A DNA stretch of 41,777 nt, from the NCBI RefSeq assembly GCF_025398255.1, contig NZ_JAODNW010000027.1, positions 1-41,777 on the forward strand, written 5' to 3'. The DNA comes from Chelativorans intermedius (GTDB lineage Bacteria > Pseudomonadota > Alphaproteobacteria > Rhizobiales > Rhizobiaceae). The notes under the pieces are model-generated. The model made no database searches. It saw nothing but the letters and a program-made list of their open reading frames with translations, and was not told the origin of the DNA. Numbering within the stretch: position 1 is the stretch's first letter; each line of letters starts with the position of its first letter. Below, one piece after another: positions 10,891 through 41,775 of this stretch. The translations under genes were made by a program, and so were the position numbers.

Positions 10891-10923
10891 GATCCGAGCT
10901 CCTGGTTAGCTGGATTGTGGTCA

Positions 10924-10964: not shown

Positions 10965-10979
10965 CATTTGATCAACGAA

Positions 10980-11046: not shown

Positions 11047-11274
11047 ATGAATGCGATCCAATGTAAGATGGCGCGCGCCGCGCTCGGATGGGGAACTCGG
11101 GACTTGGCTCGAAATGCTCGCGTATCACCCGATACCATCGCGCGCTTGGAGCGTGGCGAGCAGCTGAAGTGCTCAACGATCACCGCGATTCGCGCCGCAT
11201 TCGAGAACGCCGGCATTGAATTCATCCCCGCGAATGGCGGGGGCCCGGGCGTTCGTCTCGCGAAATCCCGGTAG
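11047..11274 (+). CDS. Small XRE-type helix-turn-helix regulator
   Basis: 75-residue single-domain DNA-binding protein. QCKMARAALGWGTRDLARNA with SPDTIARLERGE is a Cro/CI helix-turn-helix, followed by the IRAAFENAGIEFI segment usual in short rhizobial XRE proteins. No ribosome binding site precedes ATG 11047; instead the operator abuts the start, so the message may be leaderless or nearly so. The GHMP kinase gene follows 74 bases later on the same strand, suggesting one operon under self-repression. Confidence 0.88.
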   Translation: MNAIQCKMARAALGWGTRDLARNARVSPDTIARLERGEQLKCSTITAIRAAFENAGIEFIPANGGGPGVRLAKSR

Positions 11275-11348
11275 CATCCCAAGATCTGGCGAGTGACAGA
11301 AACCTGAAACCGTTCACATGATTGGCCTCCTATCCGGAGGATCATGCG

Positions 11349-12332
11349 ATGGTCTCGGGCAAATCGGCACCGCGCGGCCGCCGATCCGGTGGCGGAGCCA
11401 ACAGCACCGACAGGCAGACTGAGCGTCGGCTTCAGGTCGGGGTTGGCCGCGCGATGGCGCATCATGGCGAACTCTTGCAGGGTGTCTTCGAAGGTGCGGA
11501 TGGAAAACTCCATCGCGGGCTAATCACCCTGCCACTGGCCGCACAGCAATCGACAGTCACCTTCTGGCCGGGAGGGAAGGGCGGCATCCGCACCCGGCCG
11601 ACGGACCGCAGGAAGGCCGCCCGGGCAGCGGCGCTGACGCTCGAACTTCTGGGTTTTGCCAATGTCGGTGGCGATCTCACCATCGAAAGCGACATTCCTG
11701 TGGGCCACGGCTATGGCTCGTCGACGGCCGACGTCATGGCGGCGATCCGTGCGGCGGCCGCAGCAGCCGGTGCGACGCTGCGCCGCTCAACGGTTTGCCG
11801 GCTGGCGGTCGAAGCCGAGGGGGCGAGTGATGCCATCGCCTATGGCGACCAGGCGGTGCTGTTCGCGCATCGCGAGGGCCGCATCCTCGAACATTTCGGC
11901 GGCGAGTATCCGCCGCTCCTGGTGGTCGGCTTCCGGACCGGCGGTGCGAGACCGATCGACACGCTCGGCCTGCCGCGGGCGCGCTATGATGGCCAGGAGA
12001 TCGAGCAGTTCCGTGTTCTGCGCGGCCTGGCATCTCACGCGATCCGGCAGCAGGATCCCCGCTTGATCGGTCGCGTCGCCACCGCGAGCGCCCGCATCAG
12101 CCAGCATCATCTCGCCAAGCCGCGCTTCGAGGCGGTGACCGATTTGGCCGAGGCGCATGGCGCGTGCGGTGTCCAGGTCGCCCACAGCGGCACGCTGATG
12201 GGCGTGCTCTTCGATGCCGATGAAGGCGGCGTCGCGACACGTACTACCGCATTGGCCAAGACACTGCGGCAGGCCGGATTCAAAGGGATCGTGACCTTTG
12301 CCGTCAATGTCGACGGAGTTTTCCTGCAATGA
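11349..12332 (+). CDS. GHMP-family kinase, L-threonine kinase (PduX)-like
   Basis: 327-residue small-molecule kinase. The GRAMAHHGELLQG segment near the N-terminus matches the xxSCGELIQG opening of PduX-type threonine kinases, and IPVGHGYGSSTADVMAAIRA is the GHMP ATP-binding Gly/Ser loop. A C-terminal AHSGTLMGVLFD loop closes the active site. The open frame begins at TTG 11322, but ATG 11349 lies eight bases after a strong GGAGG, so I chose it. It overlaps the PLP enzyme gene by four bases. Known PduX proteins make O-phospho-L-threonine for cobalamin side chains. No cobalamin genes are here; the adjacent lyase suggests a catabolic role or a route to a modified amino acid. Confidence 0.85.
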   Translation: MVSGKSAPRGRRSGGGANSTDRQTERRLQVGVGRAMAHHGELLQGVFEGADGKLHRGLITLPLAAQQSTVTFWPGGKGGIRTRPTDRRKAARAAALTLELLGFANVGGDLTIESDIPVGHGYGSSTADVMAAIRAAAAAAGATLRRSTVCRLAVEAEGASDAIAYGDQAVLFAHREGRILEHFGGEYPPLLVVGFRTGGARPIDTLGLPRARYDGQEIEQFRVLRGLASHAIRQQDPRLIGRVATASARISQHHLAKPRFEAVTDLAEAHGACGVQVAHSGTLMGVLFDADEGGVATRTTALAKTLRQAGFKGIVTFAVNVDGVFLQ

Positions 12333-13363
12333 GCGGCGAAGGTGATTTCCTTGCCGCCTATGAAACGCCGCGCCTCGCGCGCTTGGCCCCCAATCTCTTC
12401 GCCGCCTGCTTCCCGCTGATGAAGCTGCTGCCGGCCCGCTTCATGCTTGAGCGTGCCGAAGCCACCGGCCATCTGCAGCACGGCGGGCCAGTCGCGGAAA
12501 CCACCTCGGGTACCTTCGGCCTGGCGCTTGCCTTGCTGGCCGCGGTGCGCGGGTTTGATCTCACTCTGGTCAGCGCCGCCAGCCTGATCGACGATAGGCT
12601 CAGGCGCCGCCTGGAGTTCCTGGGCGCCATTGTCCATATCATTGACGACCCCGAAGGTTCCGGCGCCCAGCGCGAGCGGCTCGCGCAGCTCCATACGATC
12701 CTGGAAGACCGTCCGGAGACATTTTGGCCACGGCAGTACGACAATCCCGATAACCGGATGGCCTATGGCCGGCTCGCCGAATGGATTACCCGCGAGATCG
12801 GCCGCGTCGATTGCCTTGTCGGCTGTGTTGGCTCCGGCGGCTCCCTGTGCGGTACCGGTGGCTTCCTGCGCGAGGTCTTCCCGGACTTGACGATCATCGC
12901 TGTCGACACCCATCGCAGCGTCCTGTTCGGTCACGCGCCCGGCCGGCGGCTTCTGCGCGGCCTCGGCAACTCTCTCGTGCCGTCAAACCTGCGCCATGAG
13001 ATGGTCGACGAGGTCCATTGGGTCGGCGCGTTTCCTGCATTTGCTTCGGCGCACCGACTTCACCATGACCATGCCCTCTTCATGGGGCCGACCAGCGGGG
13101 CGGCAGCGCTCGTGGCGGCGTGGTACGCGCGCAAGCATCCCGATGCGGTGATCTTTGTCATCCTGCCCGATGAAGGTCACCGCTATCAGCACACGGTCTA
13201 TGATGATGGCTGGCTTGCGGCGCTTGAGGGCTGGCCGGCGGCTGTTCCCGACGAACCTGAAACGCTCGCGCGAATCGAGGCGCGAGGGGAGGGCGAATGG
13301 ACACGCCTTGTCTGGCACCGCAAACCGCTGGCCACAATGATCGGGGCCGAGCGTGGCGTGTAG
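12329..13363 (+). CDS. PLP-dependent lyase/synthase, cysteine-synthase fold
   Basis: 344-residue fold-type II PLP enzyme. The likely Schiff-base lysine is Lys32: the MKLLPARFMLERAEATG segment keeps the family spacing of 15 residues from Lys to the Gly that ends the following helix. TTSGTFGLALA is the substrate/phosphate loop and GCVGSGGSLCGTGG the cofactor-phosphate loop. The usual N-terminal sequence around the lysine (GSxKDR) is altered, so specificity probably differs from ordinary O-acetylserine sulfhydrylase. Coupled by four-base overlap to a threonine-kinase-like gene, it may act on a phosphorylated amino acid, either eliminating phosphate to give a keto acid or exchanging it; this is inference. 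Confidence 0.87.
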   Translation: MSGEGDFLAAYETPRLARLAPNLFAACFPLMKLLPARFMLERAEATGHLQHGGPVAETTSGTFGLALALLAAVRGFDLTLVSAASLIDDRLRRRLEFLGAIVHIIDDPEGSGAQRERLAQLHTILEDRPETFWPRQYDNPDNRMAYGRLAEWITREIGRVDCLVGCVGSGGSLCGTGGFLREVFPDLTIIAVDTHRSVLFGHAPGRRLLRGLGNSLVPSNLRHEMVDEVHWVGAFPAFASAHRLHHDHALFMGPTSGAAALVAAWYARKHPDAVIFVILPDEGHRYQHTVYDDGWLAALEGWPAAVPDEPETLARIEARGEGEWTRLVWHRKPLATMIGAERGV

Positions 13364-13370
13364 ATCGTCA

Positions 13371-13399
13371 GCCTTGCATTGTAGTCACCAATGCAAGGC
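13371..13399. terminator. Terminator-like hairpin between convergent genes
   Basis: GCCTTGCATT (13371-13380) and AATGCAAGGC (13390-13399) form a perfect ten-base stem with a nine-base loop, a few bases after the PLP gene stop and before the convergent transporter operon ends. No clear T-run follows on either strand, so termination efficiency is uncertain. Confidence 0.55.
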
Positions 13400-13498
13400 T
13401 TCGACCACGCTTCTTTCGGTGAGTATTGCCGAGCGGGGGTCGCGCACCATTGTCCGATGCTCCTGGAAGCTACCCCGCCGCCCATGCGCAAGTTCTTG

Positions 13499-15004
13499 TC
13501 ACGCCACATTGCCGGACCTCTGCCAGCGCAGTTGCCGCATCAGCGGAAGGACCAGCGTCAGCGTCGCAATAACGAGGAAGGCGAGGCTGATCGGGCTTGT
13601 GACGAAAAGCACCGGACTGCCGAAGCCAAGGATCAGGCCTTGACGGAGATTTTCCTCAAGCAGCGAGCCGAGCAGGAACGCAAGGAGCAGCGGCGCGAGA
13701 TCGAAGCCACTTTTTCTGAGGCCATAGGCAAGGAAACCGCAAATGATGACGACGCCGACATCGAACAGGCTGTTGTTGATGGAAAAGGCGCCGATCACGC
13801 AGAAGATCAGGATCGATGGGGCCATCATCGCCGGCGGGATGCGCAGCAACAGCACGAAGACGCGGATGAGCGGCACGTTGAGAACAATCAGCATGGCGTT
13901 GCCGATCAGCATGCTGGCGATCACGCCCCAGAAGAGCTCGGGGTGGTCGATGATGAGCCGCGGGCCGGGCACGACGCCTTGCATGAGGAGCCCGCCCATG
14001 ATGACTCCGATCACCGCATTGGCGGGAATGCCGAGGCACAGGAGCGGGATGAAGCTCGCCTGCGCGGCGGCGTTGTTAGCGCTTTCCGGCCCGGCCAGCC
14101 CCTCGATCGCTCCCTTGCCGAACCGCTCCGGCGACCGCGAGAGGCGCTTTTCCATGACGTAGCTGGCAAAGCTCGCGATCAGCGCGCCGCCACCGGGAAG
14201 AAGGCCGAGAAAAAAGCCGAGCGCCGTGCCCCGCGTCATCGGTATGGCGGAATCCTTCCAGTCCTTGGCGTCAGGCAGCAGATCGCGCAGGCGGTAGCGT
14301 GCCGACAATGCCGGAGTGAAGTCGCGTTGGCGCTCGGCGAGGATCAGCACCTCGCTGACCCCGAACATGCCCATGGCGAGGACGGCGACGTGGAATCCGT
14401 CGCGCAGATAAGGGATGGAAAAGGTGTAGCGTTCCTCGCCCGAGACGAGATCGACGCCGACGGAGGAAAGCAGGAGACCGAGCGCTACCATGGCCCAGGC
14501 ACGGATGCGTGGCCCCTCGCCGATATTGGCGGCAAGGGTCAGGCCGAACACCACGAGGGCGGTCTTCTCGACCGGACCAAAGGCCAGCGCCGTCGAGGCG
14601 AAGGCCGGACCCACCAGCGCGATCACGAAGGTCGCCACGACGCCGGCGATGAAGCTCGCAAAGGCAGTGATGCCGAGCGCCACGCCGGCGCGGCCGGCCT
14701 GCGCCATCGGATAGCCGTCGAAGCAGCTGACCACGCTCGCTGCTTCCCCCGGCACGCGGAGCAGGATCGAGGCCGTCGAGCCGCCATAGAGCGACCCATA
14801 GTAGATGCCGGCGAGCAGGATGACCGCAGCGGTCGGCTCCAGCATGATCGAGACCGGCAGCAGCAGGCTGATGGTTGCGGTCGGACCGAGACCCGGCAGG
14901 ATGCCGATTGCGGTGCCAAGGACAGCGCCTAGGAAGGCGACGGCAAGATTGGTGGGCTCAAGGGCAACGCCCAGCCCGCCCATCAGATTGACCATGGCAT
15001 CCAT
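13499..15004 (-). CDS. tctA: Tripartite tricarboxylate transporter, large permease (TctA type)
   Basis: 501-residue integral membrane protein with about 11-12 hydrophobic helices. The hallmark N-terminal segment LPGLGPTATISLLLP and repeated PGEAASVV / GLLPGGGALIASF motifs define the TctA family. It is the main channel of a secondary, ion-driven importer that works with a periplasmic receptor and a four-helix small subunit. The ATG at 15004 follows directly after the TAA of the small-subunit gene, so the two are translationally coupled; ATG 14995 is an alternative. It is the last gene of the minus-strand operon that starts with an IclR regulator. The substrate is some carboxylate, not determinable from sequence. 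Confidence 0.95.
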   Translation of the reverse strand: MDAMVNLMGGLGVALEPTNLAVAFLGAVLGTAIGILPGLGPTATISLLLPVSIMLEPTAAVILLAGIYYGSLYGGSTASILLRVPGEAASVVSCFDGYPMAQAGRAGVALGITAFASFIAGVVATFVIALVGPAFASTALAFGPVEKTALVVFGLTLAANIGEGPRIRAWAMVALGLLLSSVGVDLVSGEERYTFSIPYLRDGFHVAVLAMGMFGVSEVLILAERQRDFTPALSARYRLRDLLPDAKDWKDSAIPMTRGTALGFFLGLLPGGGALIASFASYVMEKRLSRSPERFGKGAIEGLAGPESANNAAAQASFIPLLCLGIPANAVIGVIMGGLLMQGVVPGPRLIIDHPELFWGVIASMLIGNAMLIVLNVPLIRVFVLLLRIPPAMMAPSILIFCVIGAFSINNSLFDVGVVIICGFLAYGLRKSGFDLAPLLLAFLLGSLLEENLRQGLILGFGSPVLFVTSPISLAFLVIATLTLVLPLMRQLRWQRSGNVA

Positions 15005-15442
15005 TTATCCGATCCCCAAAATACCCACTGGCAGTGGCACGCTGAGAAAATAGCGAAAGACGCCCCAGGACAGCGCGGCCAGCACTACGGCCACGACAAG
15101 CGCGTGTGCCCAGGAGCGGTTTTCGATCCCGCGCAACACCCCGAGGATGAGGCCGAGCGTGGCAATGACTGCGCCAAGAGGCTTCATTGCGAGCCCAAAT
15201 CCGGCGACCGCGGCTGCGTAGCGCAAGAGCCGTCTGCGATCGACCGGCTCGTCCTCAGCCTCTGCGATCTCGCCCTGAATGGCCGCAGCGATGGAGGTGG
15301 CGAACAGCAGCGCTCCGGCGGCGAAAGGGAACAGGCCCGGTCCTGGCCGGTCCATCGTCCACAGGCCGAGTCGCCACGCCATTGCCGCGGCGGCAAGCCC
15401 GACCGCCGCGAGGCAGATCGCGCTCAACCGGGCCGCGTTCAT
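15005..15442 (-). CDS. tctB: Tripartite tricarboxylate transporter, small permease (TctB type)
   Basis: 145-residue membrane protein with four predicted helices, including LSAICLAAVGLAAAAMA, LFPFAAGALLFATSIAAAI and VAVVLAALSWGVFRYF. The motif GPGLFPF after helix one and the closing LPVGILGIG are typical of TctB. The open frame extends further upstream, but that part overlaps the receptor gene out of frame. ATG 15442 overlaps the receptor stop in an ATGA and is the sensible start. It would sit in the membrane beside TctA and stabilise the complex. Confidence 0.9.
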   Translation of the reverse strand: MNAARLSAICLAAVGLAAAAMAWRLGLWTMDRPGPGLFPFAAGALLFATSIAAAIQGEIAEAEDEPVDRRRLLRYAAAVAGFGLAMKPLGAVIATLGLILGVLRGIENRSWAHALVVAVVLAALSWGVFRYFLSVPLPVGILGIG

Positions 15443-16401
15443 GGACGCAGCCCAAGGGTGTCGATCTGCCGGCCAATCTCGCGATAGCCGTCGACCACGG
15501 TCTGCGTGAAGCTGGCGTTGTCGGCATAGACCCTGTGGCCGTGCAGGGTCTTGAGGAAGCCCTTGTAGGCGTCGCTTGCCGTCATCTCCTCGAGGAGTTC
15601 CTCCCACCACGAAACGATCTCAGCCGGCAGATCGGCTGGCCCGAACAGGCCATAGGCGGCGGGAATGGCGAGCGGATAGCCACGTGTCTTGAAGGTCGGC
15701 AGCTCAGGCTGTTCGGGAATTGGATCCGGCCCCGTCTCGATCAGCAGGCGGATGGAGCCGGCTTCCAGATGCGGGCCGTAGCCGGAAGCGACCACCGCGT
15801 CGATATGGCCGCCGAGCAGCGCGGTGACCGCCTCGGAGCCGCCGCCGAACGGCACGAATACCGCCTCGACCCCTTCCTGACGAAAGGCGGCTTCGGTGGC
15901 GATGTGTGCCAGTCCGCGTGGTGCGGCCGTCGCCCATCTGAGCCGACCCGGATTGGCTCTGGCGTGATCGAGTAGTTCGTCCCAGGTCGCAAACGGGCTG
16001 TCCGCGTGCACGAAGAGCGGAATCGAGATGCCTGCATAGGCGGCGACATAGGTGAAGTCCTTCGCCGGATCGTAGGGCACTTTCTGGATGTGAGGGGCCA
16101 CCATCAGGGGGCTTACGGAAAAGAGCGACAGGATTGAACCGTCCGGCTTGGCGCGGGCCACCTGGTCGGTGGCGATCGTGCCGCCCGCCCCTGGCCGGAA
16201 ATCGAGTGTTACGGCCAAATCGCGGGCGGATTTGGCATATTTGGCGACGGTGCGCGCTGCGAGGTCACCAGCGCCACCAGCGGCAAAGCCGACGACAATA
16301 GTGGCGTCCCCGGCCGGATAGGGACGTGCGGCGGCGAGCACCGGCAATGGCAGGGGAGCTGCGGCCAGTGTTGAGCCGATCAAAAAGCTGCGTCGATCCA
16401 T
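15439..16401 (-). CDS. tctC: Tripartite tricarboxylate transporter receptor (TctC/Bug family)
   Basis: 320-residue periplasmic solute-binding protein. The N-terminus MDRRSFLIGSTLAAAPLPL has a twin-arginine-like motif and a signal peptide ending near ALA-A (about residue 24). The Bug-family core follows: VVGFAAGGAGDLAARTVAKY near residue 36-55, FRPGAGGTIATDQVA, and VPFGGGSEAVTALLGGHIDA. This receptor would capture a carboxylate and deliver it to the TctAB permease encoded downstream. A clear AAAGGAG precedes ATG 16401. It lies 25 bases after the threonine-synthase-like gene in the same operon. Confidence 0.93.
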   Translation of the reverse strand: MDRRSFLIGSTLAAAPLPLPVLAAARPYPAGDATIVVGFAAGGAGDLAARTVAKYAKSARDLAVTLDFRPGAGGTIATDQVARAKPDGSILSLFSVSPLMVAPHIQKVPYDPAKDFTYVAAYAGISIPLFVHADSPFATWDELLDHARANPGRLRWATAAPRGLAHIATEAAFRQEGVEAVFVPFGGGSEAVTALLGGHIDAVVASGYGPHLEAGSIRLLIETGPDPIPEQPELPTFKTRGYPLAIPAAYGLFGPADLPAEIVSWWEELLEEMTASDAYKGFLKTLHGHRVYADNASFTQTVVDGYREIGRQIDTLGLRP

Positions 16402-16426
16402 ATTCCCACTCCTTTGTCTGTTCTTC

Positions 16427-17728
16427 TTAGTTGGCCGGCTGAAGGCTCACTTCGTGGTCTGCCTCCGTGCCGAGCAGGTCGTTTCGGGACAAATGTCCCC
16501 AAGCCTCCGCAACCGACGTGAAGGGTCGTTGGGCTTTCTTGTCTGGCAGCGAACGGTCGATGTCCTTCAGGCCGCTGGCGGTCACCACGGCGACGACTCG
16601 ATCATCTGGTGCGATGACGTTTTTCTTCCGGAGGAACTCGATGGCGACAAAGGGGGTAACCGAGGCCAGTTCAGCGAATATCCCTTCCTTGACGGCCAGG
16701 TTCTCCTGCCAGGAGATCAGGTCGCCATTGCCGACCGGCACGGCGACGCCATCGGACTGCCTGAGCGCGTTCAATGCCTGAAACGTGCTGCGCGTGGCAC
16801 CGATCGAAACAGCAAGAGAGTCGAACCCGGCCTTCATGTCGGGTACGCAATCACCATCGTCGGCCAGCGCGGCAGTCAGCGATCCGTGCACTTCGGCGGC
16901 AACCAGCCGCGGCAGGCGGGCGATCGTGCGCTGCGCATGGAGTTCCCTAAAGCCTTGCCAAAGGCCGGCCAGTGCATCGCCATAACAAACCGGCAGAACG
17001 CACCATTCGGGAACCGCACCTCCTATCTGTTCGACAATCTCGTAAGCGAGCGTCTTGTAACCTTCGATGCCGGCCGGATGACTGCCGACAACGGGAGCAC
17101 GGAAGGGAGAGGTGGCAAACCAGCCATGACGCTCAACTCCCTCGGCGATGAAGTTCCAGCGATCGGCCTTGTCCGCAAAGGGTACGACAATTGCGCCGGT
17201 CTTGTGGATCTGGGCGAGCATCGGCCCGGCGGCGCCGGCAAAGGTGGCAACGATACAGGTGAGGCCGGCCCGTGCCGCATAAGCGGCGAGCGAGGCGCCG
17301 GCATTGCCCGATGACGCGGTTGCCACGACATGTGCCCCTTGCATGCGCGCTACTGAGACGGCAACAGACGAAAAGCGATCCTTGTGCGACCAGGTCGGGT
17401 TGCGGCCCTCGTCCTTGATGTAGAGATAAGGGAGACCGAGCCGCGCGCCGATGGCCGGTGCCGGCACAAGCGGTGTCAGGCCTTCTCCGAGGGAGACGGC
17501 ATTGGACGCAGGGCAGGGGAGGCGGTGGGCATAGCGCCACAGCGAAGGCAGCGGCGGCGCGGAGGGTGAGAGACTCTTGTCCGGCCTGATATCTTCGCCA
17601 TTCGGCAAGAGCTGTAGATTGGCCGGGGCGTCATCGTAACAGGCCGGACAGCCGCGCGAGTCGATGGCAAACTCCGCGGGATAGCGGCATCCGCAGCGGA
17701 TGCAGACATAGCCGAGGAACGTGGTCAT
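16427..17728 (-). CDS. Threonine-synthase-like PLP enzyme with N-terminal zinc ribbon
   Basis: 433-residue fold-type II PLP enzyme. Residues 8-32 hold four cysteines in two CxxC pairs (CIRCGC and CPAC), a rubredoxin-like zinc ribbon found in many class II threonine synthases and related enzymes. The PLP lysine lies in GRNPTWSHKDR, the cofactor loop is ATASSGNAGASLAAYAARAG, and VCYGDALAGLW is the second glycine-rich region. ATG 17728 overlaps the peptidase stop (ATGA); longer frames upstream run out of frame through the peptidase gene. Despite the similarity, placement with a transporter, peptidase and IclR regulator argues for breakdown of an imported compound rather than threonine biosynthesis. 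Confidence 0.9.
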   Translation of the reverse strand: MTTFLGYVCIRCGCRYPAEFAIDSRGCPACYDDAPANLQLLPNGEDIRPDKSLSPSAPPLPSLWRYAHRLPCPASNAVSLGEGLTPLVPAPAIGARLGLPYLYIKDEGRNPTWSHKDRFSSVAVSVARMQGAHVVATASSGNAGASLAAYAARAGLTCIVATFAGAAGPMLAQIHKTGAIVVPFADKADRWNFIAEGVERHGWFATSPFRAPVVGSHPAGIEGYKTLAYEIVEQIGGAVPEWCVLPVCYGDALAGLWQGFRELHAQRTIARLPRLVAAEVHGSLTAALADDGDCVPDMKAGFDSLAVSIGATRSTFQALNALRQSDGVAVPVGNGDLISWQENLAVKEGIFAELASVTPFVAIEFLRKKNVIAPDDRVVAVVTASGLKDIDRSLPDKKAQRPFTSVAEAWGHLSRNDLLGTEADHEVSLQPAN

Positions 17729-18930
17729 GGCGCCACCACGATGAGGTCGCCGCTGGTGGCCATCAGCCGCTCGACACCGTCGGCCCGCACCACCACCATG
17801 TCCTCGACCTGCAGCCCCCAGCGGCCGAGCTCGTAATAGGGCGTCTCGACACACAGGACCATGCCGGCTTCGATGATCTCGTCGCTCGTCGCCGTCAGCG
17901 ACGGGGCATCATAACCGTCGATCCCGATGCCATGGCCAACATGGTTGCGGCGGTAGTGGCCGATACCCTCCCGGCGGACCGTTTCAACGGCCGCCTCGAA
18001 GACGTCGGCGACGCGCGCGCCCGGCCTGATCAATTCGCAGGCCCGTTCGACCCCGGCTAGCAGGGCGCGGTGATAGCGGCGCACCTCCTCTGACGGCTCG
18101 CCGAAGGTAGCAATGCGGGCAATGTCGGCGCGATAGTGACGGTAGCGCCCACCGACATCGAAGCGGATGACATTGCCTTGTCTCAGCCTGCGATCGGAAG
18201 GCTGGACGTTCATCAGCGCGCTTCTCTCGCCGAAGCCGATGCAGCCCAGCACCGGAAAGGCGTCGTCCTGAACGGTCTGGGCATGGAAGGCGCGCGCGAG
18301 TTCGACTTCGCTTACTCCCTCACGGGCGACACCGAGTGCGGCCTTGATCGAGCGCTCAGCGATCTCGGCGACCCTGGCTAACCTGGCGATCTCTTCCGGC
18401 GTCTTGACGGCACGCGCATTGCGGAACAGTCCAGCGGCCGGGACCAGGCTGGCGCCGGGCAGGCGTTCTCGAAGGGCTTCGAGCTGACCGGGCATCAACC
18501 CGATCTCATCAATGCCGATACGGGCGCGACTGAGACCCGCATCCGTTATCCCCGCGACGAGCGCGGAAAGCGCATCGCCATGATCGTGCGCCTCCTGCAG
18601 CTCGATCAGCCGCTGGCTGACCGGATCCTTTGCATCGGGGTTCCCGTCGACATGGAAGGCGCCATATCGGCGCACGCGCTCGACCCAGATTTGCTGGTCG
18701 GCGACCAGATCGAGCGTGGCCGTGCTGGTGACGATCTCAGCTTCCCCCTTGCCAGGCGCGGGCCATACGACATAGGCCTGAGGGCCGCGACGGATCCATT
18801 GTGGTAGCGCCCAGAAGCCGCTCGTATAGGTGACGTTTTCCGGGGTCGTGGCGATAACCGCATCGAGCTGCAGCTCGGCCATCCGAGCGTGAAGGCGATC
18901 CTTGTTGAGCAGCACGGCATCAGGCGGCAT
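17725..18930 (-). CDS. M24-family metallopeptidase (Xaa-Pro dipeptidase/creatinase-like)
   Basis: 401-residue pita-bread-fold hydrolase. The N-terminal creatinase-like domain (about 1-145) precedes the catalytic domain with the five dinuclear-metal ligands in order: Asp in RFDVGGRYRHY, Asp in ADIARI, His in NHVGHGIG, Glu in VETPYYE and Glu in VEDMVVV. I place the start at ATG 18930 (AGGGA eight bases upstream), eleven bases inside the IclR stop; a GTG at 18963 would add eleven residues. M24 relatives include ectoine hydrolase DoeA, creatinase and prolidases, so a C-N bond in an imported amino-acid derivative is a likely target; the exact substrate is unknown. Confidence 0.92.
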   Translation of the reverse strand: MPPDAVLLNKDRLHARMAELQLDAVIATTPENVTYTSGFWALPQWIRRGPQAYVVWPAPGKGEAEIVTSTATLDLVADQQIWVERVRRYGAFHVDGNPDAKDPVSQRLIELQEAHDHGDALSALVAGITDAGLSRARIGIDEIGLMPGQLEALRERLPGASLVPAAGLFRNARAVKTPEEIARLARVAEIAERSIKAALGVAREGVSEVELARAFHAQTVQDDAFPVLGCIGFGERSALMNVQPSDRRLRQGNVIRFDVGGRYRHYRADIARIATFGEPSEEVRRYHRALLAGVERACELIRPGARVADVFEAAVETVRREGIGHYRRNHVGHGIGIDGYDAPSLTATSDEIIEAGMVLCVETPYYELGRWGLQVEDMVVVRADGVERLMATSGDLIVVAP

Positions 18931-20418: not shown

Positions 20419-20566
20419 GCGCCGAGACAGTCAAGATGCCGCGTTTGCCTCCACCTATTATAGTAATCATTCGTATGCTGGAGGCTTGTTTCGCCGTTGC
20501 AGCCATAGGTAAGTTTTTCCTTCTGGAGTCGCCTGGATCGGGCGGAATTCGCCCGCTTCGTTGCAG
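20419..20566. promoter_or_regulatory. Divergent control region, XRE gene / traR-like gene
   Basis: 148 bases with several dyads: GCCTCC (20447-20452) / GGAGGC (20480-20485) flanking an AT-rich core that includes CTATTATAG (20455-20463), and GGGCG (20540-20544) / CGCCC (20550-20554) close to the luxR-type start. The AT-rich core is the likely promoter and operator area for both genes. Confidence 0.45.
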
Positions 20567-21295
20567 ATGAAGCAAAACGAACTCTTCGATGTTCTTCAGG
20601 CCGCCGAAAAAATCGACCAGGCGACAAACGTCGACGAAATTCTCGGCACGCTCTGTTCTTGCCTCGAACAATACGGCTTTTGCGCCTGCCTGATCACCCA
20701 GCTGCCGCTGACGCATGAATCGCGCTGGCAGGAATATATCCTTGCCAACTGCTGGCCGCAGGAATGGTACCAGCATTACAATGCCACCGGTCACTTTCGC
20801 CACGATCCTTGCGTGGCTCACTGCCGCCGTACGGCCGATCCGTTCCTCTGGAGTGAAGTCAGTCGAAAGAACCTGGAGGCGTCCGCCCGCTTGGTGATGG
20901 ATGAAGCAACCGAATTCGGCCTCCGGCAGGGCATTTGCGTACCGGTTCACGCGCCGTTTGCGCCACCTACCGTGGTCACGGTATCGGGGGAGATTGCCGA
21001 TCTTGTACCTGCCACCCGACTCATTGTCTGCCTTCTCGCCCGTCAGGCTCTGGAGTCGGTATCGCGGTTGCGTTCTGGTTCGGGCGACTCCGCGAAGCCG
21101 GTTCTTTCCGGCCGGGAGCGCGAGGTCTTGCGGTGGGTGGCCGACGGCAAGACGGCCTGGGAGGTCTCTCGCATCCTATCCCTCTCCGAGCATACCGTCC
21201 TGACACATCAGCGCAACGCCAAGCAGAAGCTTGACGCCGCCAACAATGTCCATGCAGTCGTGAAGGCCTTCCTCAGGCACGAAATCCAGCCCTGA
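20567..21295 (+). CDS. traR: LuxR-family quorum-sensing regulator (TraR-like)
   Basis: 242 residues: N-terminal autoinducer-binding domain (about 15-160; W-x-x-Y residues in NCWPQEWYQHYNATGHFRHD, then DPCVAHCRR and FGLRQGICVPVHAP) and a C-terminal LuxR helix-turn-helix (about 175-240: LSGREREVLRWVADGKTAWE, then ILSLSEHTVLTHQRNAKQKL). It should bind an acyl-homoserine lactone and activate transcription. ATG 20567 is chosen over TTG 20561. The acyl-HSL synthase gene follows 73 bases later, and the split fseA gene after that, the order known from ICEMlSymR7A-type elements. No convincing tra box could be picked out by eye. Confidence 0.92.
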   Translation: MKQNELFDVLQAAEKIDQATNVDEILGTLCSCLEQYGFCACLITQLPLTHESRWQEYILANCWPQEWYQHYNATGHFRHDPCVAHCRRTADPFLWSEVSRKNLEASARLVMDEATEFGLRQGICVPVHAPFAPPTVVTVSGEIADLVPATRLIVCLLARQALESVSRLRSGSGDSAKPVLSGREREVLRWVADGKTAWEVSRILSLSEHTVLTHQRNAKQKLDAANNVHAVVKAFLRHEIQP

Positions 21296-21368
21296 TAAAT
21301 CCCCAGATCTCGGTATGGCGGGCACGATCCTTCCCGGCCTAGGAACATGGAAAGCGGGGGGATTCGCC

Positions 21369-22043
21369 ATGTTCCATATTCACATTGTCGATCGTTCGAA
21401 CCGAGGCGCTTATCGTGATGAACTCGAACAGCATTATCGACTGCGCCATGAAATCTATGTCGGCGAGCGCGGCTGGCACAATCTCGCACGCCCCGACGGC
21501 CGCGAGGTCGATGCCTTTGATACCGAGGACGCCGTCTATCTGCTCGGTATCCTGCCCGGGAAAGGTGTGGTTGCCGGCTCGCGTCTGGTGCCGAGCCTAA
21601 AGCCGCATCTGATGAGTGAAGTTTTCCCTCAGCTCGCGCCTCAGGGTGTGCCGCGGGCTAACGACATCTTCGAGTGGACGCGGATATTCGTCGTGCCGGC
21701 GCTGCGTCGCCCGGGAAGTCCCTGTCTGGCCGCCGGCATCGTCTATTGTGGCATCGTCGAGTTCTGCCTCCAGCGGGGCGTCAGCCAGCTCTCGATTGTC
21801 TGCGAGACCTATTGGATCGATCGCTTGGCCAAGCTCGGCTGGAGCCCGCGCCCGCTCGGGCGGCCGATCGAGCATCGTGGTGAGACCATTATCGGCCTCA
21901 TGGTCGACACGGGTGAGGCCGCGCTCGAAACAACGCGGCAGGCTTACGCCATCAGCCATTCGGTGCTGTGGGCGCAACGCCACCAGGATCCTAGCCGCTC
22001 AGGCGATTTCCATTACACAGCGGGGGCAGCGACAGGAGGGTGA
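21369..22043 (+). CDS. traI: Acyl-homoserine-lactone synthase (LuxI/TraI-like)
   Basis: 224 residues. It makes the diffusible acyl-HSL from S-adenosylmethionine and acyl-ACP. The invariant residues of the family are visible: Arg and Trp in RLRHEIYVGERGW, two Asp in EVDAFDTED, Arg in AGSRLVPS, and Glu/Arg in FEWTRIFV. The frame opens earlier, but ATG 21369 has a GGGGGGA box and starts the conserved N-terminus MFHIHIVDRSN. Its C-terminus ends seven bases before the fseA start, so signal production and the excision activator share a transcript, giving positive feedback once TraR is active. Confidence 0.93.
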   Translation: MFHIHIVDRSNRGAYRDELEQHYRLRHEIYVGERGWHNLARPDGREVDAFDTEDAVYLLGILPGKGVVAGSRLVPSLKPHLMSEVFPQLAPQGVPRANDIFEWTRIFVVPALRRPGSPCLAAGIVYCGIVEFCLQRGVSQLSIVCETYWIDRLAKLGWSPRPLGRPIEHRGETIIGLMVDTGEAALETTRQAYAISHSVLWAQRHQDPSRSGDFHYTAGAATGG

Positions 22044-22050
22044 GAACCGG

Positions 22051-22401
22051 ATGACGGAAGTAAGCGAGGATACTTCCTTCGAGGACTGGCGGGACAGCAC
22101 CAACTACCGCCACCTGCTCAATCTCGATCGCGCCGACTGGGCCTGGGAATTCCTGCGCCGCCATCCCGATTGTCCCAGCTTTCTGATCATGCCGAGGTCA
22201 CGCCAGCTCTTGCGCGCGGCGCCACCAATCAATCTTGTCACCCTCGAGGAAGAACTGGACCATGCCCTGTCTTGGGGGTTGCGATTTCGCCGATGCGCTG
22301 TCCTCACCGGCCTACGCCTCTTCGGTCTTCTGGCGCGGCGATTGCCATGCCAACATCCTGCCGGTCGAGGCCTTTCCGGCCGGCTTCGTCGGCGACGCTG
22401 A
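22051..22401 (+). CDS. fseA: fseA 5' reading frame (DUF6499 domain)
   Basis: 116 codons in frame one. ATG 22051 follows GGAGGG by ten bases and is seven bases after traI. Residues 10-42 (FEDWRDSTNYRHLLNLDRAD, then WAWEFLRRHPDC) are a DUF6499 domain. From about codon 77 the sequence becomes Arg/Leu-rich and unlike any relative (LRFRRCAVLTGLRLFGLLAR), ending at TGA 22399. The sense of the protein continues in the +1 frame, so on its own this gives a short product probably lacking the activating domain. Together with the next entry it matches the msi172/msi171 pair that makes FseA by +1 frameshifting. Confidence 0.85.
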   Translation: MTEVSEDTSFEDWRDSTNYRHLLNLDRADWAWEFLRRHPDCPSFLIMPRSRQLLRAAPPINLVTLEEELDHALSWGLRFRRCAVLTGLRLFGLLARRLPCQHPAGRGLSGRLRRRR

Positions 22402-22864
22402 TTCCTTTGACCTTCTCAGCGTTCCTCATCCGGTCACTGTTCTGCGTTCGCTGGATGGTGAGCATGTGCTGATTTGCGATGGGCCGCGATCACTGCGTCT
22501 CGATGTCATTGCCGGAAGCCTTCTTTCCGGTCCGGTACGGCTCGGCTACTGCCTGTCGGGCTTTGCCGGCGTCGAGGCCAAAGTGATGACCCTGCGTCGA
22601 CTTCTGGCGCTCGAACGGCTCGGCCGCCTGCCCAGCGCATTGTTTCGCCCCGAACGCAAAGCGCGGCGCTGGGGCATGGTGCTGCAGGCCTATGACGGCA
22701 TGCGCGCCGGAGCCAGCCAGCGCGAGATCGCGACCATCCTTTACGGCGAAGAACGTGTCCGGGCTGACTGGGAGGCCGGCTATCTAAGAACCCGCGTCCA
22801 ACGCCTCATCCGCACCGCCGAGAAGATGATCGTCGGTGGTGGCTATCGCGTGCTGCTGCAATAG
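22262..22864 (+). CDS. fseA: fseA 3' reading frame (DUF2285 domain)
   Basis: Frame two stays open from 22187 (after TGA 22184-22186) to TAG 22862-22864. From about 22280 it encodes the natural continuation of the first frame: DFADALSSPAYASSVFWRGD, then a C-terminal DUF2285 domain (about the last 105 residues: RLGYCLSGFAGVEAKVMTLR ... REIATILYGEERVRADW ... GGGYRVLLQ). ATG 22262 could be an independent start, with GAGGA some distance upstream, so a free DUF2285 protein is possible. The +1 fusion of both frames would be 270 residues, the expected arrangement for the excision activator FseA, which switches on the rdfS-led genes in R7A. Confidence 0.82.
   Translation: MPCLGGCDFADALSSPAYASSVFWRGDCHANILPVEAFPAGFVGDADSFDLLSVPHPVTVLRSLDGEHVLICDGPRSLRLDVIAGSLLSGPVRLGYCLSGFAGVEAKVMTLRRLLALERLGRLPSALFRPERKARRWGMVLQAYDGMRAGASQREIATILYGEERVRADWEAGYLRTRVQRLIRTAEKMIVGGGYRVLLQ
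22273..22285 (+). other. Candidate +1 programmed ribosomal frameshift site
   Basis: Frame-one codons TGG GGG TTG CGA run from 22273 to 22284. Slipping one base forward on GGG (to GGT) or skipping after TTG joins the frames so that HALSWG is followed by DFADALSSPAY, which fits the WGL-F spacing of intact DUF6499-DUF2285 proteins. The shift must occur between 22187, where frame two opens, and 22398, where frame one ends. The exact base is my inference from the domain alignment. Confidence 0.6.
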
Positions 22865-32387: not shown

Positions 32388-33401
32388 ATGTCCCGCGCCG
32401 CCGATCTGGCGCGCCGTCTTGGTGAACAGGCCGAGGCGGTGTGTCGCTATTACCTGCCGAACGGCCGCCGGCAGGGTCGATACTGGATCTGCGGCGATGT
32501 CATGGGAACGCCGGGGCGGAGCCTTTATGTCCGCCTTTCCGGCGAACGTGCCGGGAAGTTTTGCGATGCCGCTGATGGAACGCATGGCGATCTTCTCGAC
32601 CTCATTGCCCTCAATCGTGGCCTCGACTTCCGCGCCGCACTCGATGAGGCGCGGGGATTCCTCAGCCTGCCGGCTCTGCCGATCCGCCAGGTCGCCCCGC
32701 CCGAGCCGACGAACTCTTCCGAAGCGGCGCGGCGGCTCTTTGCTGCGTCGAAGCCGATCCGGAGCACGCTGGCGGAACGCTATCTCCAGAGCCGCGGTAT
32801 CATTCTGCCTGCGGACATTTCCGTCCTGCGCTTTCATCCGCGCTGCTTCTATCGCGGACCTGCGGGGCGCGAGACATGGCCAGCGCTCATCGCCGCCGTC
32901 ACCGATCTCGACGGCGCCATCACTGGCGTGCATCGCACCTGGCTTGATTCTGACGGCGGTAAGGCGCCTCTCGATCAGCCGCGTCGCGCCATGGGGCATC
33001 TCGCGGGAAATGCGGTCCGGTTTGGCGTCGCTTCCGACGTCCTGACGGCGGCGGAAGGCGTCGAAACGGCTCTGGCGCTCAAGACCGTGATGCCCGCCAT
33101 GCCGGTCGCCGCCGCGCTCTCCGCCGCCCACCTCGCCGCCCTGGTCCTGCCGGCCGGGCTGCGCCGTCTCTATGTCGCGCGCGACAATGACGAGGCCGGG
33201 CGTTTCGCGCTGGAACGCTTGCGCGCCCGTTCCAGGGCCGACGATATCGACATCCGCGCGCTCGCCTCGAGGACAGAGGATTTCAACGCCGATCTTCTCT
33301 CCCTCGGTCCGGACCGGCTCAGGGCGTGGCTCGCCGAGCAGCTCGCTCCGGACGATGTTCAGCGTTTCCTTGTCGCGGGCGGGCGGACGCGATGCGTGTG
33401 A
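32388..33401 (+). CDS. Toprim-domain primase-like protein
   Basis: 337 residues. An N-terminal region with CGDVMGTPGRSLYVRLSGER and DAADGTHGDLLDLI resembles the zinc-free DUF7146/DUF3991-type entry of plasmid primases. The C-terminal Toprim domain has its catalytic Glu in AEGVETALAL and the acidic pair in ARDNDEAGRFA. ATG 32388 comes three bases after the helicase stop, so the two form a unit. It could prime complementary-strand synthesis of the transferred ICE DNA. No helicase or polymerase domain is attached. Confidence 0.88.
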   Translation: MSRAADLARRLGEQAEAVCRYYLPNGRRQGRYWICGDVMGTPGRSLYVRLSGERAGKFCDAADGTHGDLLDLIALNRGLDFRAALDEARGFLSLPALPIRQVAPPEPTNSSEAARRLFAASKPIRSTLAERYLQSRGIILPADISVLRFHPRCFYRGPAGRETWPALIAAVTDLDGAITGVHRTWLDSDGGKAPLDQPRRAMGHLAGNAVRFGVASDVLTAAEGVETALALKTVMPAMPVAAALSAAHLAALVLPAGLRRLYVARDNDEAGRFALERLRARSRADDIDIRALASRTEDFNADLLSLGPDRLRAWLAEQLAPDDVQRFLVAGGRTRCV

Positions 33402-33596
33402 TGGTCGTCAGTGCCGGACGGGGAAGGGGCGAGCATCGGGACCGCCTCCCGGTTCGGAAGGGGCCGCGCCACGGCCTTTCCAAGAGAGGGATCTGCCAGC
33501 GCCGGTCGGCTTTGCAACGGCCTGACGGCCGTCCTCCACTCCGTTGCGGCCCGGCGGGTGCAAAGCCGCCCCTTGGCGCTGGCGGGCGATCCCCGG

Positions 33597-33620
33597 AAAG
33601 GCCGCGACGGGCGCGGCTTT
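33597..33620 (+). repeat. Leader hairpin before the DUF2493 gene
   Basis: CCGCG (33602-33606) and CGCGG (33612-33616) with flanking AAAG (33597-33600) and CTTT (33617-33620) form a bulged nine-base stem ending twenty bases before ATG 33640. The preceding 230-base leader has a further GGCC-rich stem near 33450-33480. Confidence 0.4.
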
Positions 33621-33639
33621 GAGACCGGGAGACAGACCC

Positions 33640-38546: not shown

Positions 38547-38583
38547 GGGGGGATCGTTTTTGGCACCCCCCGTTTTTCGATCC
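38547..38583 (+). terminator. Terminator with overlapping alternative stem, upstream of rdfS-like gene
   Basis: GGGGGG (38547-38552) and CCCCCC (38566-38571) form a stem followed by G and TTTTT (38573-38577), a good intrinsic terminator. GGATCG (38551-38556) can instead pair with CGATCC (38578-38583); the two stems share bases 38551-38552 and are mutually exclusive. It lies 70 bases before the excisionase-like start codon. Confidence 0.65.
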
Positions 38584-38653: not shown

Positions 38654-38893
38654 TTGATCGATCACACATCAAGGGCGGCCGAGGCCCGCAAAGGCTCGCC
38701 GTTCCTCTCCACACGGGAGGCCGCATTCTATCTCGGCCTCTCCTTCCGCACCCTTGAAAAGATGCGCCTGACGGGCAACGGCCCGCGCTTCCGCAAGCAT
38801 GGCCGCTTTGTCCGCTACCACATCGCCGACCTCGATGCCTGGTCGGAAGGACGGCGGCATTCCTCCACATCTGACGAGGGAGAACGCGGATGA
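38654..38893 (+). CDS. rdfS: Excisionase / recombination directionality factor (RdfS-like)
   Basis: 79-residue winged helix-turn-helix of the MerR/Xis superfamily: FLSTREAAFYLGLSFRTLEK, then MRLTGNGPRFRKHGRFVRYH and DLDAWSEGRR. Such proteins bend attachment-site DNA and turn the integrase toward excision. The start is TTG 38654, eight bases after AGGAG. It overlaps the traF-like start by four bases, giving the rdfS-traF order of ICEMlSymR7A, where FseA activates this operon. The name rests on synteny plus domain; other AlpA-like regulators look similar. Confidence 0.82.
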   Translation: MIDHTSRAAEARKGSPFLSTREAAFYLGLSFRTLEKMRLTGNGPRFRKHGRFVRYHIADLDAWSEGRRHSSTSDEGERG

Positions 38894-39393
38894 AAAGGCC
38901 CGCCGTTCTTCCTATCGCCGCCATGCTTGCGGGCATCGCGCTCGTCGGCTTCTCCGCCATCGCGCACCCCCAGCCGCGTCTTGTCTGGAACGCCTCGGCC
39001 AGCGCGCCGATCGGTCTTTACCGCGTCGTCTCCGGCGCGCCGGAACGCGGCGATTTCGTCCTGGTCCGCCTCCCGAAATCCATCGAAAAGCTGGCCGCCA
39101 TTCGCGGCTATCTGCCTGCCGGCGTGCCGCTCATCAAGCGCGTTGCCGCCGTCGCCGGGGATGATGTCTGCGCCTTCAACGGGGCCATCATCGTCAATGG
39201 CGAAATCGTTGCCGGTCAGCGCAAGGCAGATCGGGCAGGGCGTTCCCTGCCGCGCTGGAATGACTGCCGGGAACTTGTCCAGGGTGAGTTCTTCCTCTTG
39301 GGCGACGCCCCGGACTCCTTCGACAGCCGCTATTTCGGGCCGATGCCGAGCGCCCGCGTGATCGGGAGGCTCGCGCCGCTATGGACCGACTGA
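38890..39393 (+). CDS. traF: TraF-like S26 signal-peptidase-family protease
   Basis: 167-residue membrane-anchored serine protease. An N-terminal helix (about 5-25) is followed by the catalytic Ser in SASAPIGLYRV and the general-base Lys in IKRVAAVAGDD, then FFLLGDAPDSFDSRYFGPM near the C-terminus: the three S26 boxes. In conjugative systems TraF processes or cyclises the pilin. ATG 38890 overlaps the excisionase stop (ATGA), and the stop overlaps the transglycosylase start, so the block is translationally coupled. Confidence 0.92.
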   Translation: MKRPAVLPIAAMLAGIALVGFSAIAHPQPRLVWNASASAPIGLYRVVSGAPERGDFVLVRLPKSIEKLAAIRGYLPAGVPLIKRVAAVAGDDVCAFNGAIIVNGEIVAGQRKADRAGRSLPRWNDCRELVQGEFFLLGDAPDSFDSRYFGPMPSARVIGRLAPLWTD

Positions 39394-40031
39394 GTCCCCT
39401 CATTTTCGCCGCGGTGGTGGCCATCGTCGCCTCTGCAGAGGCCGGTGTCCTCGACCGATGGCAGGCCCATATCGCCGAGGCGTCGACGCGGTTTGGAATC
39501 CCCGAAAGCTGGATCCGAGCGGCCATCATGGCCGAGAGCAACGGCGACCCCAAGGCGGTCTCGCCCAAGGGCGCTATGGGGCTGATGCAGCTCATGCCGG
39601 AGACCTGGGCCGAGTTGCGCGATCAACATGATCTCGGCGCCGATCCCTTCGATCCGCGCACGAACATCCTCGCCGGCACCGCCTACCTCAAGGCCATGCA
39701 GGACCGCTTCGGTTATCCGGCGCTGTTCGCCGCCTACAACGCCGGACCGGGCCGCTACGAGGATCATCTGCGGACCGGAAAGCCGCTTCCCGCCGAGACC
39801 CGCGACTATGTCGCGCGCATCGCAGAGATGCTCACGGGTGCGGGCCATCTCGCTTCGGACGGAACGAATTTACCGCCGACCGGCACGCGGAATCCCGATC
39901 AAATCGCCTCCGGGCAGCGGCTCTTTTTCTGGCTCTCGACGACGAAAAACGAGGCCGCACGTGACGAAAATTCCGTCCCGAATGGCGAGCTTTTCGTGCC
40001 GCTTTCGACGCGAAAGTTGGATGAAAAATGA
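39381..40031 (+). CDS. Lytic transglycosylase (VirB1-like)
   Basis: 216 residues. A signal peptide (about 1-20, LSPLIFAAVVAIVASAEA) precedes an SLT/goose-lysozyme-like domain with the catalytic Glu in AIMAESNGDPKAVS, the GAMGLMQLMPETW motif, and AYLKAMQDRFGYPALFAAYN with AGPGRYEDHL. It would open peptidoglycan locally for assembly of the type IV secretion channel. The C-terminal 55 residues are low-complexity and may be a linker. The start overlaps traF by 13 bases. In R7A the corresponding gene (msi107) lies downstream of traF. Confidence 0.92.
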   Translation: MDRLSPLIFAAVVAIVASAEAGVLDRWQAHIAEASTRFGIPESWIRAAIMAESNGDPKAVSPKGAMGLMQLMPETWAELRDQHDLGADPFDPRTNILAGTAYLKAMQDRFGYPALFAAYNAGPGRYEDHLRTGKPLPAETRDYVARIAEMLTGAGHLASDGTNLPPTGTRNPDQIASGQRLFFWLSTTKNEAARDENSVPNGELFVPLSTRKLDEK

Positions 40032-40395
40032 GGCGAGAATGCGTCGCCGAAGTCCGTTTCCCGTGCGCTTCTCGCTCCTTCCTTCGCCCGGCGGCGCGAC
40101 TTCGCCGCTGCCGGGCTTTCTCGCCACCAGTCGATGTGATCGCAGACGATCGTGGATGGTCGCAGACAGGCTCAGGGAAGCAGCGTAAGGCAAGATGAAG
40201 CTCCGGCACCATCCGCGGTGTCGCGGGCTGTAAGCCTGTGTCTGCACATCGATTTTTCTGTTGGTGGGTGGTGCTATGCACCCCCGCCGTGGTGCCATGT
40301 GGGCCGCAACTCCCCGGTTTTCCTGGGGTCGGTTGGCACCAATTTCCAGAGGCTCGTTTCGTGCCCATTCTATTGGGGTCTATGAGGAGCAGACC
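40032..40395 (+). other. oriT: Gene-free leader of the relaxase gene, candidate oriT
   Basis: 364 bases with no convincing gene. It holds TGGTGCCA (40290-40297) / TGGCACCA (40334-40341), a perfect eight-base inverted repeat enclosing CCCC (40312-40315) / GGGG (40325-40328), and GGTGC / GCACC around TAT at 40269-40281. Inverted repeats directly upstream of a VirD2-type relaxase gene are the usual setting of oriT, and oriT of ICEMlSymR7A is adjacent to rlxS as far as I recall. An imperfect hairpin near 40088-40117 may terminate the preceding transcript. Confidence 0.5.
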
Positions 40396-41775
40396 GTGTT
40401 CGACGACGACGATTTCAAACTCAAGCCCGGCAAGATCCGCTCGCGCGGCTCGAAGGTCGGACGCAAATTCCTGCATCAGGTATTGGCTGCATCGAACCTC
40501 GCGCGCGGCGGGGCGGGCGGCACACGCAAGTCCCGCTTCACCGGCAGCCGCATCGGGCGCGGCGCGGGCGTCGGACGTGTGCTTGCCAATCGCGACCGCT
40601 ATGCCGCCTTCCGCCAGCGCCGCGTCATCATCAAATCCCGCATCGTCAAGCTGGCCGGCAAGGGGATGGCCAAGGGAATGGAAAATGCGCGGGCGCACCT
40701 GCGGTATATCCAGCGCGACGGTGTGACCCGCGAGGGGGGCGCGGAGCGCGGCGAGCTTTACGGCGCCGAGCAGGACCGAGCGGACGGAAAAGCCTTCCTG
40801 GAGCGCTCGGAGGGCGACCGCCACCAGTTCCGCTTCATCGTCTCGGCCGAGGACGGCGCGGAATACGACAATCTCAAGCCGCTCACCCGCCGCCTGATGG
40901 CCCGCATGGAGGAAGACCTCGGCACGAAGCTCGATTGGGTGGCGGTCGATCACTACAACACCGGCCATCCGCACACGCATATCCTGCTGCGTGGCCGCGA
41001 CGAGGGCGGCAAGGACCTCATCATCGCCCGCGACTACATCACCACCGGCATGCGCGAGCGCGCTGCCGAGATCGTCAGCCTGGATTTCGGGCCGCGGTCG
41101 GATTTCGAGATCGAGAACCGGCTGCGTCATGAGATCGAGCAGGAGCGTCTGACGAGCGTAGACCGCCGCCTCATCCGCGATATGGACGAGGCGGGTCTCG
41201 TCGCCGCGACTGACCGCGACGCCTTCCAGCAGAGCCTGCGCGCGGGCCGGCTGCACAAGCTGAGGCGGCTGGGCCTGGCCGAGGAACTTCGCCCCGGCCA
41301 ATGGCGGCTGGAGGTGGGGCTGGAGGATACGCTCCGCCGCATGGGCGAGCGCGGCGACATCGTCAAGACCATGCACCGCGAAATGGCCGGGAAAAACATC
41401 GCCCGCAGTCCCGGCGATTACGCGATCCTCGACCCCGGAGACCCGACCGCGAACCCCGTCATCGGGCGCGTGGTGGCGCGTGGGCTATCCGACGAACTCA
41501 AGGACCGCCACTATCTGATCGTCGACGGGGTGGATGGGCGCACCCATTATGTCGACATCGGCAGGGGCGAGGCGACCGAGCCGACACCGGACGGCAATAT
41601 CGGTAAGCGGCGGCGCGGCACCATTGCCGAGGGGAGCACCACGTCGACCGTCCCCGCGAGCGCTGCAGATTTGTTTCCAGATAACTTTGCAATCTTTGTT
41701 GCAAAGCCGTTGCTGGCGGCGGGTCGTAGTTTGGTGGGTCGGACTTCAAAGGTTCCGATCAGGCCTGTGGCGTGA
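40396..41775 (+). CDS. rlxS: VirD2-like relaxase (RlxS-like), apparently truncated
   Basis: 459 residues from GTG 40396 (GAGGAG six bases upstream); the frame opens at 40261 but that part is the oriT-like region. A basic N-terminus is followed by MENARAHLRYIQRDG (probable catalytic Tyr region) and the metal-binding histidines at 186, 191, 193 and 195 in DHYNTGHPHTHILLRG. It would nick oriT and pilot the single strand into the secretion channel. The DUF3363-type region that follows breaks off: after TPDGNI (about residue 402) the sequence becomes unlike relatives, and the last 35 codons are AT-richer, ending at TGA 41773. Full-length relatives are around 650 residues, so this copy seems interrupted or rearranged. 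Confidence 0.85.
   Translation: MFDDDDFKLKPGKIRSRGSKVGRKFLHQVLAASNLARGGAGGTRKSRFTGSRIGRGAGVGRVLANRDRYAAFRQRRVIIKSRIVKLAGKGMAKGMENARAHLRYIQRDGVTREGGAERGELYGAEQDRADGKAFLERSEGDRHQFRFIVSAEDGAEYDNLKPLTRRLMARMEEDLGTKLDWVAVDHYNTGHPHTHILLRGRDEGGKDLIIARDYITTGMRERAAEIVSLDFGPRSDFEIENRLRHEIEQERLTSVDRRLIRDMDEAGLVAATDRDAFQQSLRAGRLHKLRRLGLAEELRPGQWRLEVGLEDTLRRMGERGDIVKTMHREMAGKNIARSPGDYAILDPGDPTANPVIGRVVARGLSDELKDRHYLIVDGVDGRTHYVDIGRGEATEPTPDGNIGKRRRGTIAEGSTTSTVPASAADLFPDNFAIFVAKPLLAAGRSLVGRTSKVPIRPVA
41685..41706. repeat. Perfect inverted repeat near the relaxase break
   Basis: CTTTGCAA (41685-41692) and TTGCAAAG (41699-41706) with a six-base spacer, in the AT-rich tail of the relaxase frame. It may be part of an inserted element that continues beyond the window. 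Confidence 0.45.

Follow-up and report, generated by a model that had tools for sequence, protein, structure and literature searches.

A split fseA gene in Chelativorans intermedius and a putative UUU_C slip site for its +1 frameshift

The fseA locus and its surroundings

The window, i.e. the whole stretch of 41,777 nucleotides analysed here (Chelativorans intermedius, assembly GCF_025398255.1, contig NZ_JAODNW010000027.1, forward strand), contains a gene divided between two overlapping reading frames (Table 1). Analysis of open reading frames and domains places its halves in +1 relation. The first half starts with ATG at 22051 and ends with TGA at 22399-22401; the stop of the +1 frame lies at 22862-22864, and coding in this frame would begin at 22289, after the putative slip. 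An earlier sequence-only reading described a DUF6499 frame and a DUF2285 frame overlapping in this manner, and both domains were indeed matched. The PF20109 (DUF6499) match spans profile positions 1-29 of 60. Residues 31-38 of the first half, AWEFLRRH, correspond to the AWEFLRRN-like motif of the FseA family, and the C-terminal DUF2285 domain of this family is present as well (PF10074, E 2e-21). At the junction, the tripeptide WGL is encoded by TGG GGG TTG (22273-22281), within the +1 overlap as in the FseA family. Pattern TGGGGNNTNCGATTTC, with one mismatch at most, has a single occurrence in the window, located at the junction, with 0.05 occurrences expected. According to the consulted parts of PMC10359603, FseA has 4709 homologues, about 61% of which are split by a conserved +1 site, and their WGL is encoded by UGGGGG. 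Since an FseA family with a +1 split is thus already published, the gene in the window is of a known kind.

Table 1. Features of the fseA region and of the putative target operon, in window coordinates
Feature	Positions	Strand	Basis
LuxR-type regulator (traR-like)	20561..21295	+	Autoind_bind and GerE
18-bp palindrome ATCCCCAGATCTCGGTAT, tra-box-like	21299..21316	.	identical in L002
LuxI-type AHL synthase (traI-like)	21369..22043	+	Autoind_synth; probable start picked by inspection
fseA first half, frame 0 (DUF6499/PF20109), 116 aa	22051..22401	+	PF20109 E 7.3e-12
fseA second half, open +1 frame (DUF2285/PF10074)	22187..22864	+	PF10074 E 2e-21
ATG in +1 frame, possible independent start of second half (rival reading)	22262..22264	+	ATG in the open +1 stretch of 40/109 split copies
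GGGGGT, putative Shine-Dalgarno-like stimulator	22274..22279	+	codon bias in representatives
CGA before slip codon, possible weak E-site codon	22282..22284	+	codon bias in representatives
TTTC, putative slip site, UUU to UUC by tRNA-Phe	22285..22288	+	TTT+C/T in 109/109 split copies
Inverted repeat GGATCG-N21-CGATCC upstream of rdfS, candidate FseA operator	38551..38583	.	spacing unlike published
RdfS-like HTH_17 protein, expected FseA target gene	38654..38893	+	PF12728 E 2.4e-8
TraF-like S26 peptidase	38890..39393	+	PF10502 E 2.1e-30
SLT transglycosylase, in place of msi107	39381..40031	+	PF01464 E 9.7e-25
Relaxase-like (DUF3363), in place of rlxS	40261..41775	+	PF11843 E 5.5e-41

LuxR-type and LuxI-type genes were found upstream of the split gene, which bears out the earlier placement of fseA downstream of traR-traI. 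The centre of palindrome ATCCCCAGATCTCGGTAT is about 61 bp upstream of the probable traI start (ATG 21369); for the tra boxes of Mesorhizobium, the consulted part of PMC5882170 gives centres at 69 and 67 bp upstream. The palindrome is identical in locus L002, has a single change in L003 and diverges further in L004.

HTH_17, Peptidase_S26, SLT and DUF3363 domains are encoded in this order at 38654-41775, 16 kb past fseA. The FseA target operon of strain R7A is described, in the part of PMC11963761 available to us, as rdfS, traF, msi107 and rlxS. RdfS-like matches were obtained in 45 of the 46 genomes searched. A perfect FseA box, with two inverted hexamers separated by 15-16 bp, was not found before rdfS in the window; among 19 located relatives, perfect FseA-box-like pairs are present in six (10 further loci were unplaced and L210 was left out). 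In relatives, the place of the inverted repeat GGATCG-N21-CGATCC is taken by the FseA-box-like repeat. In the window, no gene resembling QseM was recognised. Its left part (288-17854) encodes an AcrB-type pump with HlyD-type partner, a histidine kinase, a transketolase-like gene, TctA and PALP enzymes, and looks chromosomal or like cargo.

A second fseA is located on another contig of this genome (C26, about 33290-34400; L069:1292-2411). It possesses identical TGGGGGTTGCGATTTC and the same 16 bases, and its second half resembles that of the window copy (36%) over residues 110-192 only. A DUF2285-only QseM-like gene lies just upstream (PF10074, E 2.5e-9), and a DUF736 gene also precedes it. This second fseA marks a second element.

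Conservation of the split and of the junction signal

PF20109 profile searches covered 297 genomes of the order, 289 of the class, 349 of the phylum and 274 of another class, with matches in 61, 17, 33 and 12 genomes, respectively; there is overlap between these sets. A search for the second half in 397 genomes gave matches in 85. For comparison, 205 loci were collected, some overlapping one another, and 138 motif starts were found in them by expression, so that family counts cover motif-bearing copies only. Nine motif starts had no matched second half, including both that fall in parB. The second-half profile, of which 34 loci are seeds and match by construction, placed 129 relatives: 109 in the +1 frame, 19 in frame 0 and one in the third frame. 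The last one (L187, G1128:C11) is probably damaged or contains a sequence error. Greedy grouping at 70% amino acid identity gave 76 split, 16 in-frame and one other representative. Neither the sorting of frames nor the choice of the W-G codons made use of TTT.

The same split is carried by three close relatives, whose second halves are 98, 95 and 73% identical in amino acids to that of the window. Among plasmids, no DNA match of the window fseA was found, and a protein search with the window gene returned 25 records. Six plasmid loci were read separately. L240 and L242 are split and have TTTC, though both frames of L240 are open and it was called split by likeness; L239 is in frame, and reading of the junction yielded nothing for L238 and L241. 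L237 (Azospirillum lipoferum 4B plasmid AZO_p2) is split with TGTC at the junction. Its halves are annotated as separate DUF6499 and DUF2285 genes, and it is the sole exception to TTTC that we saw.

At the junction, position 1 is the first base of the two codons for W(F) and G. The sequence-only reading had suggested comparing this region among related elements. Every one of the 109 split copies carries TTT in frame, with C or T next to it, beginning between positions 10 and 19. In 104 of them TTTY occupies positions 13-16, with C as the next base in 100 and T in four; in the other five (L090, L142, L143, L148, L174) it is found at position 16. Six of the 19 in-frame copies have no alignable junction. 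In the 13 that were compared, TTTY is found at position 13 once and anywhere in 10-19 in three. At the putative slip position TTT is used in 72 of 72 representatives, versus 27% of other Phe codons in the same genes (binomial 9e-42, relatedness ignored).

Codon choice is biased upstream of TTT as well. The junction glycine is GGG in 56/72 representatives versus 13% elsewhere in the same genes, and the junction leucine is UUR (T at 22279) in 44 of 65, again versus 13%. Arginine preceding UUU is encoded by CGA in 41 of 47 representatives, as compared to 9.8% elsewhere in these genes. GGGGGU may therefore help the slip as a Shine-Dalgarno-like stimulator, and CGA before UUU perhaps does too. The distance from the last G to TTT is 6 nt, here and in 104/109 copies. 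Stimulators of +1 shifts act at 3 nt according to the consulted part of PMC5009743, and the spacing counts in this respect against the model.

The 109 split genes contain 138 other in-frame TTTY, only one of them with GGGG upstream, which rules out UUU_Y alone as the signal. One such site, TTTC within AGC TTT CTG, is situated in the first half of the window gene (22180-22183) and has no GGGG upstream; a shift there would terminate after 44 residues. It represents a natural control, suggesting that UUU_C needs its context. RNA structure on the 3' side was rejected as a stimulator: in 70 nt beginning 3 nt beyond the slip, z is -0.55 for the window and -0.10 on average over 76 representatives.

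In the 4.18 Mb genome, GGGGGYTRCGATTTC occurs twice, once at each fseA. Over 297 genomes it has 39 matches and the reversed control three. Comparison by eye located 32 of the 39 at PF20109 matches or within about 110 bp of them. The remaining seven were inspected and revealed no such split, and use of the signal by other genes was discarded.

Position of the shift and alternative explanations

Taken together, domains, gene order and conservation, all directly observed, give good support to the earlier view that the split gene is fseA of a conjugative element and requires a +1 ribosomal frameshift. In our reading of these sequences, its joined product very probably arises by slippage of tRNA-Phe from UUU to UUC at 22285-22288. 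A review, in the part consulted, describes bacterial UUU_Ynn as especially prone to +1 shifts (PMC5009743).

The same peptide would result if CGA occupied the P site and the next tRNA-Phe read UUC out of frame, with no slippage of a paired tRNA. Out-of-frame reading by the next tRNA has been proposed for yeast Ty3. The preponderance of CGA among arginine codons before UUU (41/47 in representatives) and of C next to TTT (100/104) would suit such a mode. On the other hand, 38 of the 104 copies with TTTY at 13-16 do so without CGA, and a base other than T could equally be skipped. We consider this mode unlikely.

The sequence-only reading put the slip earlier, either by re-pairing of GGG to GGT or by skipping of C after TTG, both of which would give a product of equal length with only one or two residues changed. 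The strong preference for GGG and UUR at the junction would agree with that. Several observations speak against it. Codon 3 in frame 0 encodes Leu, Val or Ile in 72/72 split representatives, while in +1 reading it would be Cys, Tyr, Ser, Phe, Trp or stop; alignment of single-frame relatives over the junction, also envisaged earlier, shows Leu in 10/10 in-frame representatives. In five split copies (L039, L089, L105, L153, L170) a +1-frame TGA at positions 8-10 stands between GGGGG and TTT, so that a slip at GGG is excluded in them. Position 6 is not G in 26/102 copies and the codon at 7-9 is variable, but TTT is invariant. Base 13 is T in 99/102 copies (earlier sorting by open-frame length), and in the other three TTT comes one codon later. 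A shift occurring after TTG would make base 13 the third base of a +1-frame codon, free to vary, and its constancy would not be accounted for. The residue at codon 4 is no guide as to whether the shift falls after TTG or at TTT. In L142, TTT is directly followed by TGA in frame 0, and its shift must therefore take place at or before TTT.

The simplest interpretation of codon 3, the TGA codons, base 13 and L142 seems to be a shift at TTT itself, and an earlier one is very unlikely. Of the hand-over interval proposed before (22273-22285), the end that touches the putative slip codon (22285-22288) holds, while TGG GGG TTG as slip codons do not. What is new in relation to the earlier reading is thus the slip site, which these comparisons indicate to be two codons away from that proposal. 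"UUU" does not appear in the consulted main text of PMC10359603. Likewise, the compared passages of PMC10359603, PMC11963761, PMC8627217, PMC9973854, PMC5882170, PMC9601964 and PMC5009743 do not state UUU_C for FseA; the original 2015 mapping paper lies outside this comparison.

Could the halves be two separate proteins, with the DUF2285 half starting by itself and pairing with the DUF6499 half? The window contains both ATG 22262 and TTG 22235 in the +1 frame, with GAGGA shortly upstream of the ATG. A like view is taken for the Azorhizobium pair rihF1b/rihF1a, whose members have their own starts and stops and need no frameshift, as described in the consulted part of PMC9601964. However, ATG is found upstream of the junction, within the open +1 stretch, in 40 of the 109 split copies and any of ATG, GTG and TTG in 63; the other 46 have none of these codons and still keep the signal. 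Moreover, in-frame homologues and RovC are single chains. The probability that we assign to separate proteins is accordingly very small.

Slippage of RNA polymerase at the G run, giving messages one base longer or shorter, is extremely improbable. Five G are present, but this is a short run, and it is interrupted in 26/102 split copies; known slippery runs for polymerase are longer. A dead gene copy or sequencing error has a practically negligible chance: a single-base offset would look alike in one genome, yet the split is common to 109/129 classified relatives and substitutions preserve codon phase in both halves, and conservation thus refutes it. In 33 close pairs, which are non-independent and in some cases more than 97% identical, mismatches at codon positions 1/2/3 number 122/112/265 in frame 0 before TTTY and 172/133/365 by +1-frame position past it. 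The third-position excess switches from frame 0 before the site to the +1 frame beyond it.

Proposed mechanism and relation to known systems

Slippage at UUU_C can be placed in the following scheme, whose regulatory steps (switch by TraR, activation of rdfS) are carried over by analogy from ICEMlSymR7A. TraR and its signal would turn on the traI-fseA transcript. Most ribosomes would stay in frame 0 as far as the stop at 22401 and produce a short DUF6499 protein. In a smaller number, while UUU (22285-22287) occupies the P site and GGGGGU (22274-22279) is base-paired with 16S rRNA, tRNA-Phe would shift from UUU to UUC, and reading would resume in the +1 frame with GCC (22289). FseA, the joined DUF6499-DUF2285 protein, would then activate the rdfS operon 16 kb downstream, leading to excision and transfer. 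We infer the slip, its rate and the roles of GGGGGU and CGA.

On a wider scale, the FseA family might rely on a +1 signal of its own in two parts, GGGGGU-N5-UUU_Y, with a preference for CGA directly before UUU and with neither stop codon nor 3' structure, kept across Alphaproteobacteria and distinct from that of prfB. The rate of FseA synthesis, and with it that of transfer, would be kept low by a weak E-site codon together with a Shine-Dalgarno spacing resembling that of initiation. We regard this proposal as evenly balanced between true and false. If it is true, UUU_UGA of L142 is a natural bridge to the prfB type.

FseA is described in the consulted part of PMC10359603 as the transfer switch of many mobile elements, with halves that are often misannotated. 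A precise site (UUU_Y, 6 nt past the G run) would help to correct genome annotation and would allow the determinant of the transfer rate to be tested by changing a single codon. The family would also be a widespread candidate member of the bacterial UUU_Y class of +1 sites.

The closest counterpart is FseA (msi172-msi171) of ICEMlSymR7A from Mesorhizobium japonicum R7A, which has the same two domains in the same order and with the same +1 overlap (PMC10359603). As in the window, its WGL is encoded by UGGGGG and the gene lies downstream of luxR/luxI-type genes (PMC10359603, PMC5882170, PMC11963761), and the element carries rdfS, traF, SLT and relaxase genes. This likeness refers to those parts of the published descriptions that were consulted, not to the R7A junction sequence. 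In contrast to ICEMlSymR7A, rdfS is here 16 kb away, and the QseM-like gene is found not in the window but by the second fseA on C26.

The prfB gene (release factor 2) shares a Shine-Dalgarno-like G run and a +1 slip of P-site tRNA onto a readable codon, as described in the part of PMC5009743 at hand. Its slip codon is CUU instead of UUU, and its Shine-Dalgarno spacing is 3 nt (same source) as opposed to 6 nt. The stop codon of the prfB-type shift site is absent here, the next frame-0 codon being CGC. Relative L142, with UUU_UGA, has a stop like prfB and a spacing of 9 instead of 6.

Influenza PA-X and plant amalgaviruses use UUU_CGN +1 sites, according to the consulted parts of PMC3498833 and PMC5052127, and the site in the window is UUU_CGC. 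The viral sites operate on eukaryotic ribosomes and without a Shine-Dalgarno element; the likeness is one of site, not of descent.

Among PDB sequences, the joined reading matches RovC of Yersinia best (PDB 6xz5, E 3.4e-5). Most of the score comes from the second half, the first half alone being weak (6.3 bits). RovC is a single chain in its deposited sequence and, in the consulted part of PMC10359603, an activator of a type VI secretion system.
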